Assembly (NCBI GenBank): GCA_000230955.3
Contig: CP007060.1
Span: forward strand, 744,001-808,000
Direction: 5' to 3'
Origin: Halobacterium sp. DL1
GTDB lineage: Archaea; Halobacteriota; Halobacteria; Halobacteriales; Halobacteriaceae
Length of the DNA stretch: 64,000 nucleotides
Position 1 is the stretch's first letter; every line of letters starts with the position of its first letter. Both the position numbers and the translations under genes were made by a program. The notes beneath the pieces were generated by a model, which worked only from the letters and a program-made list of their open reading frames with translations, was not told the origin of the DNA and did no database searches. Shown in pieces: positions 11,852-39,493 of the stretch.

Positions 11852-13120
11852 TCAGACGAGTTCGCTCGCCGGAATCGTCTCCTGGTCCTCGAAGGAGCCG
11901 TCGACGACCTGAACGACGACCATGTCGCTGGCCACGTCGCCGTTCTCGTCGTAGTTCACGTTCCCGCTCGGACCGGAGTAGTCGATGTCGGAGCCGTTGT
12001 CGAGTGCGTCGACGCCGGCCTGGAACTCGCCGTAGCCGACCGCCTCGCCCTCCGGGTTGGTCACGGGCCGCATCTGCTCCTTGACGTCGGGGGACGCGAC
12101 GCTGCCCGCGCTGTGGGCGGCGAGCGCCCACGACATCAGCGCGTCGTAGGAGTTCCAGGAGTACGGCGAGAACAGCTGCGAGTCGGGGTACGCCGACTCG
12201 TAGTCGTCGACGAAGCTCTGGGTGTCGCCGCCGCTCGGCGGCTTCGTGCGGACGCCGTACATGCCGTTCATCACTTCTTCGCCGACGTTCTCGATGACGT
12301 CGCTGGAGAGCAGGCTGGTGTGGAGCACCCAGTTGCCGCCGTAGCCGCCCTCGTACCACTGCGAGAGGATGGTCGTCCCGCTCTCGGGGTAGCCCGCGAG
12401 CGCGACGTAGTCGGGGTCGTCGGCGAACAGTTCCTCGAGGGACTGCTGGTAGGAGGAGGCGCCGGACTCGTAGCCCACCTTCGCGGTCACTTCGCCGTCG
12501 AAGGACTCCTCGAAGACGTCCGCGAGCGCCGAGCCGAAGTCGTTGTTGACGTAGAGCACGGCCGCGGAACTCGCGTCGTTGTTCTGCGCGATACGTGACA
12601 TCACTCGCGCGACGAACCGGTCGTTGGTACGGGTCCGCCAGACGTAATCGTCGTCGTCGAGCGTGCTGATGACGGGCGACGAGGACGCCGGCGTCACGTG
12701 CAGTACCTCGTTGGGCACGGTCACCGACTCCGCGATGCTGATGGTCACGCCCGAGGAGACCGCGCCGAACACCGCGTCGACGCCGGTCGTGTCGACGAGC
12801 TTGGTCGCGGCGTTGACGCCCTGGGTGGACGCCGAGTTGGAGTCCTCGAAGTGGAGCTCCACGTTCATGCCGTTCGGGCCACCAGCGTTGTTGATGTCCT
12901 CCCGTGCCAGTTCGAAGCCGTTCTGCATCGGCCCCCCGAAGTCGCTGAGGTCTCCGCTGAACGGCACGACGACGCCGACGTCGACGGTGCCGCCACCGCC
13001 GCCGCCACCGCCCTGGAGGTCCTCGAGGCAACCCGCCAGTCCGGCGGTGCCGAGGGCACCGGCGGCGCGCAGGAACCGTCTCCGTTTCAACCGATCACTG
13101 AACGAGCTGTCCTGTGACAT
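11852..13120 (-). CDS. Tat-exported lipoprotein, amino acid/amide ABC substrate-binding protein (LivK-like)
   Basis: This 422-residue protein has the twin-arginine motif RRRFLR (residues 13-18) and a lipobox LAGC with the lipid-attached Cys31, followed by a Gly-rich linker. The remainder is a type I periplasmic-binding fold: VDVGVVVPFSGDLSDFGG, then QNGFELAREDIN and a central AVFGAVSSGVT. This is the extracytoplasmic receptor for LivHMGF and the first gene of the unit. A TATA box sits about 26 nt upstream of the ATG, and inverted and direct repeats lie around it, so it is likely the controlled promoter of the pathway. Confidence 0.92.
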   Translation of the reverse strand: MSQDSSFSDRLKRRRFLRAAGALGTAGLAGCLEDLQGGGGGGGGTVDVGVVVPFSGDLSDFGGPMQNGFELAREDINNAGGPNGMNVELHFEDSNSASTQGVNAATKLVDTTGVDAVFGAVSSGVTISIAESVTVPNEVLHVTPASSSPVISTLDDDDYVWRTRTNDRFVARVMSRIAQNNDASSAAVLYVNNDFGSALADVFEESFDGEVTAKVGYESGASSYQQSLEELFADDPDYVALAGYPESGTTILSQWYEGGYGGNWVLHTSLLSSDVIENVGEEVMNGMYGVRTKPPSGGDTQSFVDDYESAYPDSQLFSPYSWNSYDALMSWALAAHSAGSVASPDVKEQMRPVTNPEGEAVGYGEFQAGVDALDNGSDIDYSGPSGNVNYDENGDVASDMVVVQVVDGSFEDQETIPASELV

Positions 13121-13133
13121 AGTGTAACACTAT
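13119..13133. promoter_or_regulatory. Perfect inverted repeat over the livK-like start codon (candidate operator)
   Basis: ATAGTGT and ACACTAT form perfect 7-bp arms around a single base. The site overlaps the ATG and the predicted transcription start of the binding-protein gene, where a bound repressor would block RNA polymerase. Function is inferred. Confidence 0.5.
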
Positions 13134-30397: not shown

Positions 30398-31702
30398 CTA
30401 GGGGCTCAGACGCTGGCGGTCACGCGGGAAGAGGACGGCTTCCCGGATGTTGTCGAGGTCGAGCATCGTCATCACGAGGCGTTCGACGCCGTACGCCCAG
30501 CCGGCGTGGGGCGGCATCCCGTACTTGAACATCTTCGTGTAGTAGTCGAACTGGTCGGGGTCGAGGCCCTGCTGCTCGAAGCCGGCGACGAGTTCGGGGT
30601 AGCGGTGTTCGCGCTGCCCGCCGGAGACGAGTTCCATGCGCGGGTGCATCAGGTCGAACCCTTTCGAGAGGTCGGGGTCGTCGTCGTAGTTCTGGATGTA
30701 GAACGGCTTGATCTCCGCGGGCCAATCGGTGACGAAGTAGTGGCCGCCGACGTCGTCGCCGAGCGCCTTCTCGCCCTCGGTAGGGAGGTCGTCGCCCCAG
30801 ACCAGCTGCTCGTCGAGTTCACCCGTCGCATTGATGCGCTCGATGGCCTCCTCGTAGGTGAGCCGCGGGAAGTCGTCGGTGGGCGCCTCGAACTCCTCGG
30901 CGAGGCCTAGAATCTCGAGCTGGTCCTGGCAGTTCTCCTCGACGGCCTCGTAGGCCGCGCGGAGCGTGCCCTCGCAGACGTCCATCGCCTCCTCGTGGTC
31001 GATGAACGCGGACTCGAAGTCGATCATCGTGGCCTCGTTGAGGTGGCGGGGCGTGTTGTGCTCCTCGGCGCGGAAGATCGGGCCGATTTCGAAGACGCGC
31101 TCGAGGCCGGAGCCGACCATCAGCTGCTTGAACAGCTGCGGGCTCTGGTTCATGAACGCCTCGCGGCCGAAGTACGTGATGGGGAAGAGTTCGGTGCCGC
31201 CCTCCGTCCCGGTGGCGACGATCTTCGGCGTGTTGATCTCCGTGGAGCCGACCGACCGGAAGTACTCACGGACCGCGCGCAGCACTTCGGCGCGGATGTC
31301 GAAGACGGCCTTCGTCTCGTCGGTCCGCACGTCGAGCGTGCGGTTGTCGAGGCGCGTCGAGAGGTCGGCGTCGACCTTCCCGGAGGGGTCTAGCGGGAGC
31401 TGGGGGTCGGCCTCGGCGAGCACCTCGATGCTCTCGGGGACGACCTCGACGCCCGTCGGCGCGCGGTCCTCCTCCTCGACGTCGCCCGTGACCGAGACGA
31501 CGGACTCGCGGTGGACGTTCAGCCCGGTCTCGACGAGGTCGTCGTCCATCTCGTCCTTCTCGAACTTGACCTGGATCTTCCCGGACTTGTCCCGGAGGAT
31601 GAGGAACGCGATGCCGCCGAGGTCCCTGACTTCGTGGACCCAGCCGGCGACCGTCGCGTGGTCGCCCGGTTCGGCGTCCGCCGTGTACGTACGAGATTCC
31701 AT
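30398..31702 (-). CDS. aspS: Aspartyl-tRNA synthetase (archaeal type)
   Basis: The ATG at 31702 gives 434 residues (an upstream in-frame ATG at 31741 would only add a poor leader). There is an N-terminal OB-fold ([19 protein letters not shown]), class II motif 2 ([19 protein letters not shown]) and motif 3 ([11 protein letters not shown]). The absence of a GAD insertion is typical of the archaeal/eukaryotic form. It charges tRNA-Asp and, in archaea lacking asparaginyl-tRNA synthetase, may also charge tRNA-Asn. A TATA-like GTTTAAG lies 28 nt upstream. Confidence 0.93.
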
Positions 31703-31726
31703 GCCTCCCGATTCACGAGGACTGGC

Positions 31727-31733
31727 CTTAAAC
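31727..31733 (-). promoter_or_regulatory. Probable TATA box for aspS
   Basis: GTTTAAG on the minus strand is centred about 28 nt upstream of the ATG at 31702, giving a leaderless transcript. Confidence 0.45.
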
Positions 31734-31789
31734 GACTTCATTTCCGGCGTGGAGCGGGCGGCCCGCGCGCCCGACCAACGGGAGGGCGC

Positions 31790-31954: not shown

Positions 31955-33214
31955 TCAGTCGTGTGGCTGGGTCAGCCCCGGGGCCGGGTCCTTCTCGCCG
32001 GCGTCGTGGAGGTGGCAGGCCGCGGGGTGGCCGGTGCCGGTCTCCTGTAGTTCGGGTTCCCGCTGCTCGCAGACCGTCGCGAACGCTTCGCGGAGTCGGT
32101 CGGCCGCGGCGTCCACGTCGCCGGCCACCGCGTCGTCGACAGCCGCCGCGAGCACTGCCTCCGCGTCGGGGTCCGGGAGCGCCCGCGGGAGGTCGAACTC
32201 GGCCCGGACGTCTGTCCCGTCGTCCAGGGCCTCGGCGTCCACGTCACCGTTCTCGGCGGCCAGCCGGAAGTCCAGCACCTGCCGGAACGAGCCCTCCGGG
32301 AAGTCGTACGCCGCCGGCGGGACGACGTGCGGGCAGCGCGGGTGGAACGAGCAGCCAGCGGGCGGGTTCGACGGGTCGGGAACGTCGCCGGTGAGTTCGA
32401 CGGCGTCCCCGCGCTTGCGGGGGTCCGGGTCGGGAATCGACGCCAGCAGCGCCTCCGTGTACGGGTGCTGGGGGTTCTCGAACAGCTCCTCGGTCGGCCC
32501 CATCTCGACCATCTCGCCGAGGTACATCACGCCGACGCGGTCACACACCTGCCGCACGACGCCGAGGTCGTGGCTGATGAGCAGCATCGACAGGTCGAGT
32601 TCCGCCTGCAGGTCGTCGAGCAGCGAGAGAATCTCGGCCTGCACGCTCACGTCGAGCGCGCTCACCGGCTCGTCAGCGACCAGCAGGTCGGGGTTGAGGA
32701 TGAGCGCCCGGGCGAGCGCGATGCGCTGTTTCTGTCCGCCGGAGAACTCGTGAGGATAGCGGTCGGCGTCGTTCGCCGAGAGGCCGACGCGCTCCAGCAG
32801 GTCGGCGACGATCTCCTGTTGGCGCTCCTCGTCGCGGAGGCCGTGGATGCCCAGCGGCTCCGCGACGGACTCGCCGACGGTCATCCGCGGGTCGAACGCA
32901 GAGTTTGGGTCCTGGAACACCATCTGGGCGCGCCGCCGGAACTCCGTCTCATCGTCGTCGCCGTACTCCGTGATGTCCTCGCCCTCGAAGTACACCTCGC
33001 CGCCGGTCGGCTCCTCGAGGCGGAGCAGGCTGGTCGCCGTCGTCGACTTCCCGCAGCCCGACTCACCGACGAGGCCGACCGTCTCGCCCTCGCGGACCTC
33101 GAAGCTCACGCCGTCGACGGCCTTCACGTGGCCGGTGACGCGGCGCAGAATCCCCGAACGCACGGGGTAGTGTTTCTCCAGGTCCCGCACAGAGAGGATG
33201 GCGTCGTCAGTCAT
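31955..33214 (-). CDS. dppF: Dipeptide/oligopeptide ABC transporter ATP-binding protein (DppF/OppF type)
   Basis: This 419-residue ATPase has Walker A GESGCGKST at 50-58, a FSGGQKQRI signature, Walker B LLVADEP (with A for L/I/V) and the C-terminal oligo_HPY Cys pattern CSFHPRCPH. In the usual protein that pattern ends about 30 residues later with a second Cys block. Here an acidic insertion of about 80 residues (DVDAEALDDGTDVRAEF and onward) separates it from CEQREPELQETG and ACHL. It overlaps the dppD gene by 8 nt. It energises the permeases encoded next to it. Confidence 0.9.
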   Translation of the reverse strand: MTDDAILSVRDLEKHYPVRSGILRRVTGHVKAVDGVSFEVREGETVGLVGESGCGKSTTATSLLRLEEPTGGEVYFEGEDITEYGDDDETEFRRRAQMVFQDPNSAFDPRMTVGESVAEPLGIHGLRDEERQQEIVADLLERVGLSANDADRYPHEFSGGQKQRIALARALILNPDLLVADEPVSALDVSVQAEILSLLDDLQAELDLSMLLISHDLGVVRQVCDRVGVMYLGEMVEMGPTEELFENPQHPYTEALLASIPDPDPRKRGDAVELTGDVPDPSNPPAGCSFHPRCPHVVPPAAYDFPEGSFRQVLDFRLAAENGDVDAEALDDGTDVRAEFDLPRALPDPDAEAVLAAAVDDAVAGDVDAAADRLREAFATVCEQREPELQETGTGHPAACHLHDAGEKDPAPGLTQPHD

Positions 33215-34211
33215 CGTCCACCTCCATGGCCCGCGGCACCTCGTGGTCCGACCCGTACAGCACGCAGGAGACGTCGTGCTCGCCGCCGACGTCCTCGAAG
33301 GCAGGCTGGTCGCCCTCCTCGCAAGCGGGTTCGGCGTGAGGACAGCGCGGGTGGAACCGACAGCCCTCCGGCGGGTCCGTCGGGTCCGGGAGGGTGCCGC
33401 CGATGGTCTCCAGCGCCCGCCCGCGACCGGGCAGGCAGTTGAGCAGCGCCTTCGTGTACGGGTGCGAGGGGTTCTCGAACACCTGGTAGACGTCGCCCGT
33501 CTCCATCACCTTCCCCGCGTACATCACGACGACGCGGTCGGCTATCTCCGCGACGACGCCGAGGTCGTGGGTGACGAACACCATCGCCATCCCGCGCTCG
33601 TCCTGCAGGTCGTCGAGCAGGCGCAGCACCTGGGCCTGGATGGTGACGTCGAGCGCAGTGGTCGGTTCGTCGGCGATGAGGAGGTCGGGGTCGCAGGCGA
33701 GCGCCATCGCGATGACGACGCGCTGTTTCATCCCGCCGGAGAACTGGTGGGGGTAGTCGTCGATGCGCTCCTCGACGTCGCCGATGCCGACGCGGTCGAG
33801 CAGCTCGATGGCGCGCTCGCGGGCGACGGACTTCGGCACGTCGCGGTGGAGGCGGATGGCCTCGACCAGCTGGTCACCGACGGTGTAGACTGGGTCGAGG
33901 GCGCCCTGGGGGTTCTGGAAGACGTGGCCGATGCGGCAGCCGCGGTACGCCTCGAGCTCCCTCGAGGAGAGGGCCGCGAGGTTCTCGCCGTCGAAGTCCA
34001 CCTCGCCGCCCGTGATCTCCCCGGGCGGCGTCGGGATGAGCTTCGTGATGGACTCGCAGGCGACCGTCTTGCCCGAACCCGACTCGCCGACGAGACAGAC
34101 CGTCTCGCCGGGTTCGACGTCGAAGCTCACGCCGTCGACGGCGCGGACGGTCCCGTCCTCGGTGTCGAACTGGATGTGCAGGTCGCGGACGGAGAGCAGC
34201 GGGTCCCCCAT
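33207..34211 (-). CDS. dppD: Dipeptide/oligopeptide ABC transporter ATP-binding protein (DppD/OppD type)
   Basis: This 334-residue ATPase has Walker A GESGSGKT (42-49), signature FSGGMKQRV, Walker B LLIADEP and a C-terminal CRFHPRCPHAEPACE pattern typical of the oligo_HPY domain. It begins immediately after the dppC stop (34212) in the minus-strand operon dppC-dppD-dppF. Confidence 0.92.
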   Translation of the reverse strand: MGDPLLSVRDLHIQFDTEDGTVRAVDGVSFDVEPGETVCLVGESGSGKTVACESITKLIPTPPGEITGGEVDFDGENLAALSSRELEAYRGCRIGHVFQNPQGALDPVYTVGDQLVEAIRLHRDVPKSVARERAIELLDRVGIGDVEERIDDYPHQFSGGMKQRVVIAMALACDPDLLIADEPTTALDVTIQAQVLRLLDDLQDERGMAMVFVTHDLGVVAEIADRVVVMYAGKVMETGDVYQVFENPSHPYTKALLNCLPGRGRALETIGGTLPDPTDPPEGCRFHPRCPHAEPACEEGDQPAFEDVGGEHDVSCVLYGSDHEVPRAMEVDDD

Positions 34212-35384
34212 CTACGCCACCCCCTCGTGCGGGTCGAGTACGTCGCGGACGACGTCCCCGAAGACGTTGAACGAGAGCACAGTGAGCACCAGGAACGCGG
34301 TGACGCCGGCGGCGACCCACCACCCCATCCCGAACGGCGGGAGCGACCGCCGGAGGATGCCGCCCAGCGAGCGCAGCCGGACGGTGTTCAACTGGAGGTA
34401 CGCCAGCAGCACCTGCACGAGGATGAGCAGTGGAATCTGGCGGGTGAGCGCGGTGACGACCGTCGCCGTCGAGTTCGGGACCAGGTGTCGCCTGATGACG
34501 TGGAGGTCGCTCGCGCCGGCGCTCCGGGCGGCCCGGACGTAGCCCGACTCCCGGCGCTCGAGGGTCTCGCTGCGGACGAGGCGGGCGATGCCGCCCCAGT
34601 TCAGCAGGCCGAAGATGAGCGCGAGGGTGAACAGTCCCTTCCCGAGGTACATCGTCGCGACGATGATGTAGACGACGATGGCGGGGATGGTCTGCTGGAC
34701 GTCGACGTACCGCATCAGCACGTCGTCGACCCAGCCGCCGAAGTAGCCGGCTGTGGTGCCGACCGCGGTCGCGACGACGACCATGATCATCGCGGCGGCG
34801 ATGGAGAGTTTCAGCGCGATGTGCGCGCCGTACATGATGACGTTCACCATGTCCTCGCCGACGCTCGTGGTGCCCAGCGGGTACTGCCAGGAACCGTGGC
34901 AGACGCCCTCGGTCACCCGACCGACGCAGTCGACGCCAGCGTTGCTGGCGATGCCGATGCTCGTGAACACGGGCGGCTGGTAGTCGGCGTAGAAGTCGAC
35001 CCGTGGCATTCCGAGGAGTTCCGGGCCGACGAGCCCGAGCACGCCGAACGCAGCGATCCAGGCGGCGCTCGCGACCCCGGCGGGCCGCCGGAGGAACGCC
35101 CGGACCGTGCCGCTGGACTGGTCGGCGTTGGCGGCTAACGGGACGACGGCGTACCGGACGAACAGGACGCACGTGAGGAAGAACAGCCAGTCCATCCGGT
35201 TCAGGATCCACGTGTCGACGATGGCACCCGACACCATCGTGTAGTCGTAGACGAAGAGGGCGGCGAGGCCGGCGAGCGCCGCGACGAAGCCGACCGTCCG
35301 CGGTCTGACGTCGAGGGCACTCCTCTGTCGGTCACTCCAGTCGATACTGGTGAACAGCGGGGACTCGTGCTGCTTGGAGGGCAT
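34212..35384 (-). CDS. dppC: Dipeptide/oligopeptide ABC transporter permease (DppC type)
   Basis: This 390-residue permease has a binding-protein-dependent transport core (MetI-like) in its second half, with the EAA-like loop ESGYVRAARSAGASDLHVIRRH. It is longer than the usual 290-300 residues because two extra hydrophobic segments lie before the core (residues about 35-75). The gene is divergent from the DppB-type permeases. No substrate-binding protein gene is in this locus. Confidence 0.9.
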   Translation of the reverse strand: MPSKQHESPLFTSIDWSDRQRSALDVRPRTVGFVAALAGLAALFVYDYTMVSGAIVDTWILNRMDWLFFLTCVLFVRYAVVPLAANADQSSGTVRAFLRRPAGVASAAWIAAFGVLGLVGPELLGMPRVDFYADYQPPVFTSIGIASNAGVDCVGRVTEGVCHGSWQYPLGTTSVGEDMVNVIMYGAHIALKLSIAAAMIMVVVATAVGTTAGYFGGWVDDVLMRYVDVQQTIPAIVVYIIVATMYLGKGLFTLALIFGLLNWGGIARLVRSETLERRESGYVRAARSAGASDLHVIRRHLVPNSTATVVTALTRQIPLLILVQVLLAYLQLNTVRLRSLGGILRRSLPPFGMGWWVAAGVTAFLVLTVLSFNVFGDVVRDVLDPHEGVA

Positions 35385-35416: not shown

Positions 35417-35426
35417 TTTTATAAAA
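35417..35426. promoter_or_regulatory. Palindromic TATA box shared by divergent promoters
   Basis: TTTTATAAAA is a perfect 10-bp palindrome between dppC (start 35384) and the plus-strand reading frames. It is about 37 nt upstream of the dppC ATG and 32 nt upstream of an ATG at 35454, so one box could serve both directions. Confidence 0.45.
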
Positions 35427-35453: not shown

Positions 35454-35534
35454 ATGCTGCCCGCCCTCCACCACCGAGCCGCACCGCCCTCCAGACCGAA
35501 CTCCGCGACGACCACCGCAAGGTGGTCACCGTGA
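35454..35534 (+). other. Short upstream ORF coupled to the first DppB-type permease
   Basis: An ATG at 35454 opens a 26-codon frame whose TGA stop overlaps the permease GTG start by 4 nt (GTGA). The ATG lies about 32 nt after the palindromic TATA box. A similar arrangement precedes the second permease. It may be a leader peptide or a coincidental frame. Confidence 0.35.
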
Positions 35535-36544
35535 GCTTCTCGACGTACGTCGCGCGCCGGACGCTGTTCGCGCTGCTCGCCGTCTACCTCGTCGTGACGG
35601 CGACGTTCGGCGTCGTCGCGCTCACGCCGAACACCGACCTCGGCGGCGAGATCGGGACCGCAGTGTACTACGACCGGATCTCGGCCGAGGAACGCCAGGA
35701 ACTCAAGCAGTCGTACCTGGAGGAGCGCAACCTCGACCGCTCGCTCTCGGACCGCTACGTCGACTGGCTCGTCGGCCTCTCTACACTCGACTGGGGGTAC
35801 TCCTTCGAGTACGACAAACCCATCTCGAATCTACTGATACCGGCGATACAGCGCACGGCGCTGTACACGATACCGTCGTTCGCGTTCGCCGTTCTGCTCG
35901 GCACTGCGCTCGGCGCGCTCTCCGGGGCGCGCCGTGGTATCCCGGACGGAACCGTCCGTCTCCTCGGGTACGCCACTGTCGGCATCCCCGCGTTCATGGG
36001 TGCGTTCGTGTTCCTGGAGCCGTTCGTCGGTGACGTCGAGTGGCTACGGCTCCTCACCTGGGAGAACACGACGGCGTTCACGATACAGGGGGAACCGATG
36101 AACCCCAACCGTGGACTGTGGCCGCCCTCGAAGCCGCTCCGGTTCCTGGTTCCCGCGGGTGTGTTTGCCGTGGCGCTGGTGGGGTGGCAGCTCCGGTACG
36201 GCCGAGTCGCCTACCTCGAACAGGCCAGCGAGGAGTTCGTAAAACTCCACCGCGCGAAAGGTGCCGGCTGGTTGCGGGTCGCACGCCACGTGCTGCGGAA
36301 CGCGGCGGTGCCCATCGTGTCGGCGTCGCTGTCCGAACTGCTCGTGGTCGTCCTGGTGAACATCTACGTCATCGAGACGGTGTTCGGCATCCAGGGCGTC
36401 GCGGCGTACAACATGATTGCCGTACGCACCCGTGATATGGCGCTCATAATCGGGACGTCGCTGGTGCTCGCAGTGGGTGGTATTCTGGCGAGTTACGTCC
36501 AGGACCTGCTGTACGGTTACCTGAACCCACGGATTCGAGCGTAG
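35531..36544 (+). CDS. dppB: DppB-type ABC permease, copy 1
   Basis: This 337-residue permease starts at GTG 35531, which aligns with the start of its paralogue at 36639 (VSFSTYVARRTLF against MSFASYVGRRTLF). A longer frame from 35387 is open, but the extra 48 residues look like leader. About six transmembrane segments follow, with the coupling loop KLHRAKGAGWLRVARHVLRNAAVP. The gene is adjacent to dppC-D-F in the opposite direction. It is closely related to the next gene, both in protein and in a long almost identical DNA stretch. Confidence 0.88.
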   Translation: MSFSTYVARRTLFALLAVYLVVTATFGVVALTPNTDLGGEIGTAVYYDRISAEERQELKQSYLEERNLDRSLSDRYVDWLVGLSTLDWGYSFEYDKPISNLLIPAIQRTALYTIPSFAFAVLLGTALGALSGARRGIPDGTVRLLGYATVGIPAFMGAFVFLEPFVGDVEWLRLLTWENTTAFTIQGEPMNPNRGLWPPSKPLRFLVPAGVFAVALVGWQLRYGRVAYLEQASEEFVKLHRAKGAGWLRVARHVLRNAAVPIVSASLSELLVVVLVNIYVIETVFGIQGVAAYNMIAVRTRDMALIIGTSLVLAVGGILASYVQDLLYGYLNPRIRA

Positions 36545-36560
36545 CGACCCTCGCTCCCTA

Positions 36561-36642
36561 ACGTTTATTCTCGTTCACTTTCACTACTCGCGTGCTAATG
36601 CCCTCCACACTGCCCGCCCACGGTAGCGGTGGTCCTCCATGA
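36561..36642 (+). other. Promoter and short upstream ORF before the second permease
   Basis: ACGTTTATTC (36561-36570) is TATA-like. An ATG at 36598 about 31 nt later opens a 14-codon frame whose TGA stop overlaps the permease ATG by 4 nt (ATGA). This mirrors the arrangement of the first permease. Confidence 0.35.
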
Positions 36643-37652
36643 GTTTCGCGTCGTACGTCGGCCGGAGGACGCTGTTCGCACTGTTCACGATCTACCTCGT
36701 CGTGACGGCGACGTTCGCCGTCGTCGCGCTCACGCCGGACACGCAGATCGGCGCGATGAAGGGAAGCATGCAACGCGCCGGCGTCTCGTCGGACGTCATC
36801 GAAGAACGCGTCCAGGCGTACAAGGAAGCCCGCGGCCTCGACGACCCGCTGCACGTCCGGTACGCCGACTGGCTCGTCGACGTCAGCACGCTGAACTTCG
36901 GGCGGGCGCACTCGATGAACGCCCAGACCGCCGCGGTGCTGTGGCCAGCCATCCAGCGCACCGCCCTCTACACGATACCCGCGCTCGCGTTCGCACTGGT
37001 CCTCGGGACGCTGTTCGGCGGTCTTTCGGGGTCGCTCTCCGGGAGCGTCCCCGACTGGGCCGTCCGCGTGGTCGGCTACGGCGCCGTCGGCGTGCCCGCG
37101 TTCATGACGGCGTACGTGCTGCTGGAGCCGTTCGCCTCTAGCTTCGAGTGGGTTCGTCTGCTCACCTGGAAGCACACGCCCTTCGACAGCCTGGGGCGGG
37201 TCGCCCTCCCCAACCACGGGCTCTGGCCGCCGTCGGAGCCGCTCCGGTTCCTGGTTCCCGCCGCGGTGTTCGCCGTGGCGCTGCTCGGCTGGCAGGTGCG
37301 GTACGTGCGGACATCGTACCTCGACCGCGCCGGCCAGGAGTCGGTGAAACTGCTGCGAGCGAAGGGCGCGGGGCGGCTGAAGATCGCCCGTCACGTGCTG
37401 CGGAACGCGGCGGTGCCCATCGTGTCGGCGTCGCTGTCCGAACTGCTCGTGGTCGTCCTGCTGAACATCTACATCATCGAGACGGTGTTCGGCATCGAGG
37501 GCGTCGCCGCGCTCAACATGATCGGCGTCCGGCAGCGGGAGATGTCGCTCATAATCGGGACGTCGCTCGTCCTGGCAGTCGGCGGCGTGCTGGCGAGTTA
37601 CGTCCAGGACCTCCTGTACGGCTATCTCGACCCACGGATTGGCACCGAGTGA
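36639..37652 (+). CDS. dppB: DppB-type ABC permease, copy 2
   Basis: This 337-residue permease is closely similar to copy 1. The last 120 residues, including NAAVPIVSASLSELLVVVLLN, are nearly identical. The middle has about six transmembrane segments and the coupling loop KLLRAKGAGRLKIARHVLRNAA. It may form a different heterodimer with DppC. The three tandem permeases presumably come from local duplication. Confidence 0.88.
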   Translation: MSFASYVGRRTLFALFTIYLVVTATFAVVALTPDTQIGAMKGSMQRAGVSSDVIEERVQAYKEARGLDDPLHVRYADWLVDVSTLNFGRAHSMNAQTAAVLWPAIQRTALYTIPALAFALVLGTLFGGLSGSLSGSVPDWAVRVVGYGAVGVPAFMTAYVLLEPFASSFEWVRLLTWKHTPFDSLGRVALPNHGLWPPSEPLRFLVPAAVFAVALLGWQVRYVRTSYLDRAGQESVKLLRAKGAGRLKIARHVLRNAAVPIVSASLSELLVVVLLNIYIIETVFGIEGVAALNMIGVRQREMSLIIGTSLVLAVGGVLASYVQDLLYGYLDPRIGTE

Positions 37653-38661
37653 CGACCCTGGGGAATTAGTTCCGCGGGTCGAGCGCGTCGCGGGCCGCGG
37701 CCTCTTCGCGGTGTTCGCCGCGTTCCTCGTCGTCTCCATCACGTTCGGCGTCGTCGTCTCCATGCCGAACGTGCAACTCGGCGCCGAGATAGCGAGCGCG
37801 CAACGGAGCGGCGCGACCGACGCACAGATACAGCATCTCCGCGAGGAGTTCTGGGAGCAGCGCGGCGGGAAGACCGGCGCGCTCGACCGCTACGTCGACC
37901 GGATGACCGGCATCGCCACCCTCGACTGGGGGGAGTCCTACGAGCTCCAGCGGCCGGTCACGGACGTGCTCGCCCAGCGACTCCAGTACACCCTGGCGTA
38001 CGTCGTCCCTGGCGTCCTGGGTGCCTTCCTGGTGGGGTCGCTGGTGGGCGTGGCGAGCGGGTTGCGGCGGAACACCGGTTTCGACAGGGCGGCCCGGCTG
38101 GGCGCGTATCTGCTGATGGGGCTGCCGGCGTTCTGGGTCGTCCACTTCCTCGACACGAAGTACCGCTGGACGATGCCGTGGCTCGAGCCGACCCTCCACG
38201 CGTTCGGGGCGTCGGTGCGCATCCCGCTCGTCTGGTCGTTCGACCACCCGCTCCGGTACGCCTGGCCGACGCTCGTGCTCTCCATCGGGCTCGCCGCCGG
38301 CCTCCTCCAGCACTCGCGGGCGGAGTCCCTCGAGTACGAGCGGGCTGAGTTCGTGAAACTGCTGCGCGCGAAGGGCGCGGGGCGGCTCCGGGTCGCGCGA
38401 CACGTCGTCCGGAACGCCGCCATCCCGATTCTCACGCTGTCGTTCGTGGAGGTGCTCGGCGTGTTGATGCTCAACGTCTACATCATCGAGGCCGTCTTCA
38501 ACATCCCAGGGCTGGGCGCCATCAGCCTGTTCGCCATCAAGAACCAGGACCTCCCGCTCATCATCGGCTCCACGCTCGTGCTGGTGTTCATCGGCATCGG
38601 CGGCAACTTCCTACAGGACCTGCTGTACGGCTACCTAGACCCGTCGATACGCGAGGACTGA
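37639..38661 (+). CDS. dppB: DppB-type ABC permease, copy 3
   Basis: This 340-residue permease is more diverged. It keeps the coupling loop KLLRAKGAGRLRVARHVVRNAAIP and the C-terminal FLQDLLYGYLDPSIR. The reading frame opens at a TTG (37639) inside the end of copy 2, overlapping by 14 nt; I see no ATG or GTG in the correct place. It starts with residues PSDDPGELVPRVERVAGRGLF, then the first membrane segment. It is probably translated by coupling with copy 2. Confidence 0.82.
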   Translation: MAPSDDPGELVPRVERVAGRGLFAVFAAFLVVSITFGVVVSMPNVQLGAEIASAQRSGATDAQIQHLREEFWEQRGGKTGALDRYVDRMTGIATLDWGESYELQRPVTDVLAQRLQYTLAYVVPGVLGAFLVGSLVGVASGLRRNTGFDRAARLGAYLLMGLPAFWVVHFLDTKYRWTMPWLEPTLHAFGASVRIPLVWSFDHPLRYAWPTLVLSIGLAAGLLQHSRAESLEYERAEFVKLLRAKGAGRLRVARHVVRNAAIPILTLSFVEVLGVLMLNVYIIEAVFNIPGLGAISLFAIKNQDLPLIIGSTLVLVFIGIGGNFLQDLLYGYLDPSIRED

Positions 38662-38670
38662 GCGATCCAC

Positions 38671-39381
38671 CTATCGGTCCGCGTGGGCGTCCTGGACGCC
38701 CTCGACGGTCCGGCGGACGGCGTCGACGCCCTCCTCGTGGAGCAGGTCTCCGACGACGATCGTGTCGGCGTGCTCGCCCATCTGGTAGGCCGCGTCGTAG
38801 TCGCCGATGCCACCGCCGTAGAACAGCGTCGCGTCGTCGAGCGCGTCGGCGGCCGCCGCGACCACGTCCGGCTCGCCGAGCATCCCAGAGTACTCGACGT
38901 AGACGATCTCCTGGCCGAACAGCCGGTCGGCGACCGCCGCGTACGCGGCCACGTCGTCGGCGCCGAGGTCGCAGTCGGCCTCCGTGTACTCCGCGACGCT
39001 CGCCTCCGGGTTCAACACGATGTACGCCTCCGTCGTGGTGCGCTCCCAGTCCAGGTCCGCGATGCGAACCCACTCCTTGTGGGCGCCCGTAATCCAGAAG
39101 GGGTCGCCGGCGTTCAGCACGACCGGCACGAGGTAGCCGTCCAGCGCGTCGTCGTCGACGACGACGGCCGGGTTCGACGGCTCCTGGTAGAGCGGAACGT
39201 CGTGTTTTCGGCAGGCGTCGATGACCCGCTGCATCTTCTCGGTCGTCACGTCCAGCGTGCCGCCGACCTCGATGGCGTCGGTGCCCGTCTCGCAGACGTC
39301 GTCGAACGTCTCGCCGTCGACGAGCGACTTGTCCGGGTCCACCTTCAGCACGTGGTCCCAGTCCTCCCACGGGGTAGTCAT
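38671..39381 (-). CDS. Phosphoglycerol geranylgeranyltransferase (GGGP synthase)
   Basis: The ATG at 39381 gives 236 residues with the GGGP/PcrB TIM-barrel pattern: [32 protein letters not shown] and the phosphate-binding [10 protein letters not shown]. It makes geranylgeranylglyceryl phosphate, the first ether bond of archaeal lipids. It is convergent with permease copy 3. The start is supported by alignment with the family and not by the longer frame. Confidence 0.92.
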
Positions 39382-39493
39382 GGTCCCCGATTTCAAACGT
39401 GCGGCCAAAACCCCTTCGGTGCGGCGAGTAGTGCCTCGATGTGGGCGGCGCTACCGCTGGGACGGCGCTACCGGCGGAGAATGGAGGCGAGAC

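Follow-up and report, generated by a model that had tools for sequence, protein, structure and literature searches.

A Dpp/Opp-type transporter locus in Halobacterium with three tandem DppB-type permeases, one DppC-type permease and no adjacent binding protein gene

Transporter genes between aspS and GGGPS

The window, that is, the whole 64,000-nucleotide stretch of the Halobacterium sp. DL1 genome (3.16 Mb, grouped with 12 others in the single genus Halobacterium) that was analysed, carries six transporter genes in the order <F <D <C | B1> B2> B3>, all with open reading frames. The reverse strand encodes a DppF-like ATP-binding subunit (F; 31955-33214; Walker A GESGCGKS, signature FSGGQ) and a DppD-like one (D; 33207-34211; Walker A GESGSGKT, signature FSGGM), both with an intact H-loop and an oligo_HPY match, followed by a DppC-type permease (C; 34212-35384) with a haloarchaeal N-terminal extension of ~110 residues for which two extra long helices are predicted. 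Opposite this single C stand three intact BPD_transp_1 permeases in tandem on the forward strand, as the initial annotation had proposed: B1 (35531-36544, GTG start), B2 (36639-37652), whose nearest relative is the single B of H. bonnevillei, and B3 (37639-38661, TTG start), which overlaps the end of B2 by 14 nt. The divergent intergenic stretch of 146 bp contains the near-palindromic, TATA-like element ttttataaaa (35417-35426, no strand assigned), a candidate promoter judging from sequence only; a scan for sigma-70 promoters, a model that does not cover archaeal ones, returned zero sites. On either side lie reverse-strand genes that we take, from their proteins, to be aspS (30401-31738) and the gene for geranylgeranylglyceryl phosphate synthase, GGGPS (38671-39408).

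Two different permeases of the BPD_transp_1 family and two ATPases with Walker A, signature and H-loop motifs and oligo_HPY place the locus among Dpp/Opp-type importers such as E. coli DppABCDF and M. tuberculosis OppABCD and DppABCD, with which it shares the family and fold of B and C. It differs from them in lacking a cognate SBP_bac_5 substrate-binding protein (SBP), in having B divergent from C-D-F, in holding up to three B genes per C and in the extra N-terminal helices on C. None of the named NCBIfam permease equivalogs (DppB, OppB, NikB, SapB and others) reached its curated cut-off: the best matches were Opp2B for the B genes (133-150 bits against 350) and Opp4C for C (176 bits against 350), and the SapB profile scored 48.8 against 432 bits, so that membership of SapB/SapC is not indicated. 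Structure prediction gave B2 a mean pLDDT of 83.8, with values under 50 confined to residues 179-195, and C a mean of 76.8; both models had Opp/Dpp permease chains as their top structural matches. C also carries cysteines at residues 153 and 162, in the loop leading into the second core helix, and both are invariant in 19 aligned C proteins, SBP-carrying and SBP-less alike; the pair is a possible extracellular disulfide.

Binding protein survey and permease trees

No SBP_bac_5-like protein was found near the locus, the sole match in the window being one of 24 bits at 11855-13129. The genome encodes five SBP_bac_5 proteins, and all five lie beside other, complete transporters with a B and C of their own. 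Similarly, these proteins have their own permeases close by in G141 (2/2), G107 (4/4), G064 (3/3) and H. bonnevillei (G160; 4/5). A divergent SBP_bac_5 protein (L286) sits on a short, 9-kb contig of G160 that shows no permease match, and partial matches similar to it occur in Halobacterium genomes with and without the SBP-less locus.

The initial annotation had remarked on one C facing three B genes with no binding protein gene nearby, which is correct and reflects a property of a whole lineage, not of this locus alone. In 120 stretches from relatives, taken from among the best matches and not from all of them, none of 83 divergent C genes (69 genomes) had an SBP_bac_5-type protein within 1.5 kb of B, whereas 35 of 41 co-directional C genes in the same stretches had one near B; an earlier, smaller set gave absence in 43/43 divergent and presence in 34/38 co-directional cases. 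The search used a profile HMM iterated from the five SBPs of the window genome, for which the 35 co-directional matches serve as a positive control. Because the loci were picked for their relationship to the window's C and B2, the 83/83 describes the SBP-less clade only. The survey comprised 125 C genes, one of them without a B in range, and six that were co-directional or without B had no SBP within 1.5 kb (L215, L259, L153, L194, L248 and L251); in L215 an SBP lies ~1.2 kb away on the other strand, where the survey rule missed it, and L259 is located at the start of its fetched stretch. Counts of B were limited to 2 kb from C, which gives two for the window and for L264, where the true number is three; B sequences of 600 bases or fewer were dropped from the survey and rows shorter than 200 residues from the tree.

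In the C tree (84 rows), the SBP-less proteins form one clade with an SH-aLRT of 99, and the SBP label changes once. Canonical SBP cassettes fall outside this clade, and loss of the SBP is thus the derived state. The label changes twice in the B tree (91 rows), one change being due either to the mislabelled L228, whose SBP label there comes only from an adjacent canonical cassette, or to L231, which is placed on the SBP side of the B tree by a weak branch (37) and on the SBP-less side of the C tree. The nearest outgroup in the C tree is formed by co-directional haloarchaeal SBP-B-C-D-F cassettes, which have the same N-extended C and cysteine pair but differ in having the SBP directly before B and conserved outer loops. 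Since these SBP-carrying relatives have the same extension, we rejected the N-terminal extension of C as a substitute for the SBP. An all-against-all comparison of neighbouring open reading frames found no conserved non-SBP partner gene across genera in divergent loci; the clusters they had in common were the syntenic flank of five Halobacterium loci and small groups of close relatives. Likewise, Pfam searches of 10 neighbouring frames, from 139 candidates, detected no SBP family.

The permeases of the SBP-less clade are relaxed in their outer parts and retain the ATPase-coupling region. At matched overall identity, loop 166-205 of B, by far its most variable part, is 0.15 identical in the SBP-less clade against 0.42 in SBP-carrying relatives, and residues 336-352 of C, before its last helix, are 0.39 identical against 0.62, while the EAA region keeps 0.62 against 0.59 in B and 0.64 against 0.52 in C. 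Judging from topology, the relaxed segments would face the SBP. The scoop region of B, which according to PMC12136057 contacts DppA in the E. coli DppB, shows no lower conservation in the SBP-less clade (0.36 against 0.32); loss of the scoop motif was not seen, which argues against a clean loss of the SBP contact.

Conversion among the B genes and history of the site

B1 and B2 are 73.3% identical in DNA and 64.5% in protein. The initial annotation had singled out a nearly identical stretch in them at about 36290-36395 and 37393-37497 and had suggested recent duplication or gene conversion. The tract spans 36287-36400 in B1 and 37392-37505 in B2 (both on the forward strand, at a constant offset of 1105) and covers codons 252-289 of B1, counted from 0, which encode the end of the EAA loop and TM5; its first 69 bp (36287-36355 and 37392-37460) are the longest identical run of the pair. 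Within it, 35 consecutive same-residue codons have no silent difference, whereas over the whole gene pair 62 of 208 such codons carry one (permutation p = 0.0002), a sharp local drop rather than uniform divergence. When B1 and B2 were each compared with the single B of H. bonnevillei, the longest runs were 8 and 12 codons (p = 0.53 and 0.46). A three-way comparison with this orthologue gave informative sites of 19:2:1 inside the tract, 19/22 favouring B1 with B2, and of 96:134:82 outside it, where only 96/312 do. Silent divergence is thus lost sharply within the tract, in conflict with the tree outside it, as ectopic conversion would have it. Given zero silent divergence in the tract and no drop against the H. 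bonnevillei orthologue, gene conversion of the ordinary kind between old paralogues is supported. Such a mechanism is unsurprising, since haloarchaea are polyploid and, as PMC8223754 reports for Haloferax volcanii, convert efficiently and without selection; there, however, conversion runs between genome copies in long tracts, and here between paralogues over ~0.1 kb.

That the identical tract reflects chance or codon constraint is very improbable: it does sit where the gene is best conserved, and the longest runs in between-genome pairs are often found there as well (38/91), but the run test counts silent changes only, the comparisons with H. bonnevillei show no run, and p < 0.005 was reached by none of 91 between-genome pairs of the SBP-less B family against 2 of 10 within-genome pairs, B1/B2 among them. 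By this within-genome excess (4/10 against 4/91 at p < 0.05), conversion recurs between B paralogues of the family. A fixed hotspot is not supported: the pooled test of silent rates inside and outside gave p = 0.07, with 2/10 pairs below the 5th percentile, and B2 codons 235-305 contain the longest run in 7/10 within-genome pairs but also in the 38/91 between-genome pairs mentioned above. Orphan B genes, unaccompanied by C, D or F, were seen far from the main locus in G141 (L155, 7793-8746) and G064 (L157, 8822-9790), and the former has a silent-identical run of 55 codons with the C-adjacent B of its own genome.

Recent duplication of B1 and B2 is not supported. Even without the tract columns, B2 and the H. 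bonnevillei B pair up (98/97) and B1 branches outside that pair, so the copies are not mutual closest relatives; forcing B1 and B2 together gave a p-AU of 0.024, a moderate rather than overwhelming rejection. B3 groups with B genes of three other Halobacterium genomes, G141, G064 and G107 (100/99), where each faces a C' of its own, and by this grouping it is an old paralogue and the orthologue of those genes. The C' genes form a separate clade (100), apart from the window's C, and are missing from the window.

The content of the site varies within the genus. H. bonnevillei has one B there; G141 and G064 read <B <B3 C'> <B C D F, with one TAG inside the C' match of G064, and G107 reads <B3 C' D F. 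The aspS side is visible in G160, G141, G049 and six empty sites, and only the GGGPS side in G064 and G107. In the six Halobacterium genomes without the transporter, aspS directly adjoins GGGPS, with ~30-55 bp between the protein matches. A scar of the locus was seen in the sister genome G049, whose aspS is 96% identical (L160, 8369-9150): F and D are intact, C is internally deleted, B1 and B2 are gone and a degenerate scrap of B3 is left. Given this varied B and C content, permease genes have been gained and lost in the aspS-GGGPS interval around a D-F pair that is stable, and the window's three B to one C is one state of this site.

Possible operation without a binding protein

More than one B also occurs elsewhere, with two at L164, L262 and L281 and three at L264, and genes for the ATPases are not always at hand. 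In G203 (L264, 6847-11600), one C faces three tandem B genes with no adjacent ATPases. Since 31 of the 83 divergent C loci have no neighbouring ATPase gene, the ATPases may serve B-C pairs elsewhere in the genome. Among 30 genomes with such ATPase-less loci, 10 hold another sampled divergent locus that has ATPases, and in G049 the intact D and F stand beside the wrecked C, with a B|C pair without ATPases elsewhere in the genome.

We arrive, at about even confidence, at the following reading: a haloarchaeal Dpp/Opp-type clade, in which B is transcribed away from C-D-F, lost its SBP once and works without one, with interchangeable B proteins and perhaps as an exporter. C, D and F would form the constant core, and because C needs one B-type partner for the transmembrane dimer, B1, B2 or B3 would pair with it in turn, giving three translocators with different outer loops and channels on one common motor. 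Recombination in the conserved EAA/TM5 part would keep the interface of the B proteins alike. Least certain is that it works without any SBP; transport would then most likely be outward, or of substrate from the membrane or cytoplasm, by analogy with SapBCDF and putrescine. SapBCDF of E. coli and P. mirabilis, which PMC12772348 names as exporting putrescine without SapA, belongs to the same subunit family, and this family can therefore export; the P. mirabilis operon, however, contains sapA according to the same source, whereas no SBP gene is nearby here, and the window permeases lie far below the SapB cut-off. A full version, in which one C-D-F motor exports with a specificity set by a changing set of B proteins, conversion keeping their motor-facing segment uniform while their outer faces diversify, is possible but tentative. 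As to the order of readings, we favour export, only slightly ahead of an SBP-free importer, with a borrowed SBP in third place.

For an importer whose substrate binds directly in the B/C cavity, different B proteins conferring different specificity, the variable outer loop of B, the multiplication of B copies beside one C and the overall importer fold would all be in keeping, but no precedent in the Dpp/Opp family was found in the literature searched and the E. coli translocator alone is inactive. We regard this possibility as open to doubt. According to PMC12136057, DppBCDF of E. coli shows ATPase activity only when DppA is present, so that an SBP-free member must be coupled differently; altered ATPase coupling would, by this analogy, be needed. 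Rather unlikely is an importer that borrows an SBP encoded elsewhere, be it an SBP_bac_5 protein, such as that of a canonical cassette acting in trans, or a lipoprotein of some other family. In P. aeruginosa, five SBPs (DppA1-A5) work with DppBCDF (PMC4206461), the scoop region is kept here and one of the five G160 SBPs has no permease match on its 9-kb contig; against this, all five SBP_bac_5 proteins of the window genome belong to other complete cassettes, the two of G141 are both taken, the outer loops of B and C are relaxed and no neighbour family is conserved. Finally, it is quite improbable that the extra B copies and absent SBP mark the decay of an unneeded transporter, as the deleted C, missing B1 and B2 and B3 scrap of G049 and the empty site in six other Halobacterium genomes might suggest, given six open genes with intact motor motifs in the window and an SBP-less clade with a conserved core in 69 sampled genomes.

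Dependence on a binding protein is what defines type I ABC importers. No description of SBP-less or multi-B haloarchaeal Dpp loci was found in the open-licence papers searched, which does not prove that there is none. The absent SBP is a larger finding than the conversion tract and, together with the multi-B layout, marks a variant of a known transporter type; annotation of SBP-less loci as 'dipeptide importers' is not justified. From a large natural clade without an SBP one could learn which elements of the translocator serve the binding protein alone, and such a clade would be a direct test of whether the peptide family can run without an SBP or in reverse, and the shifting numbers of B and C genes at one site would amount to a natural experiment on subunit exchange in ABC transporters.
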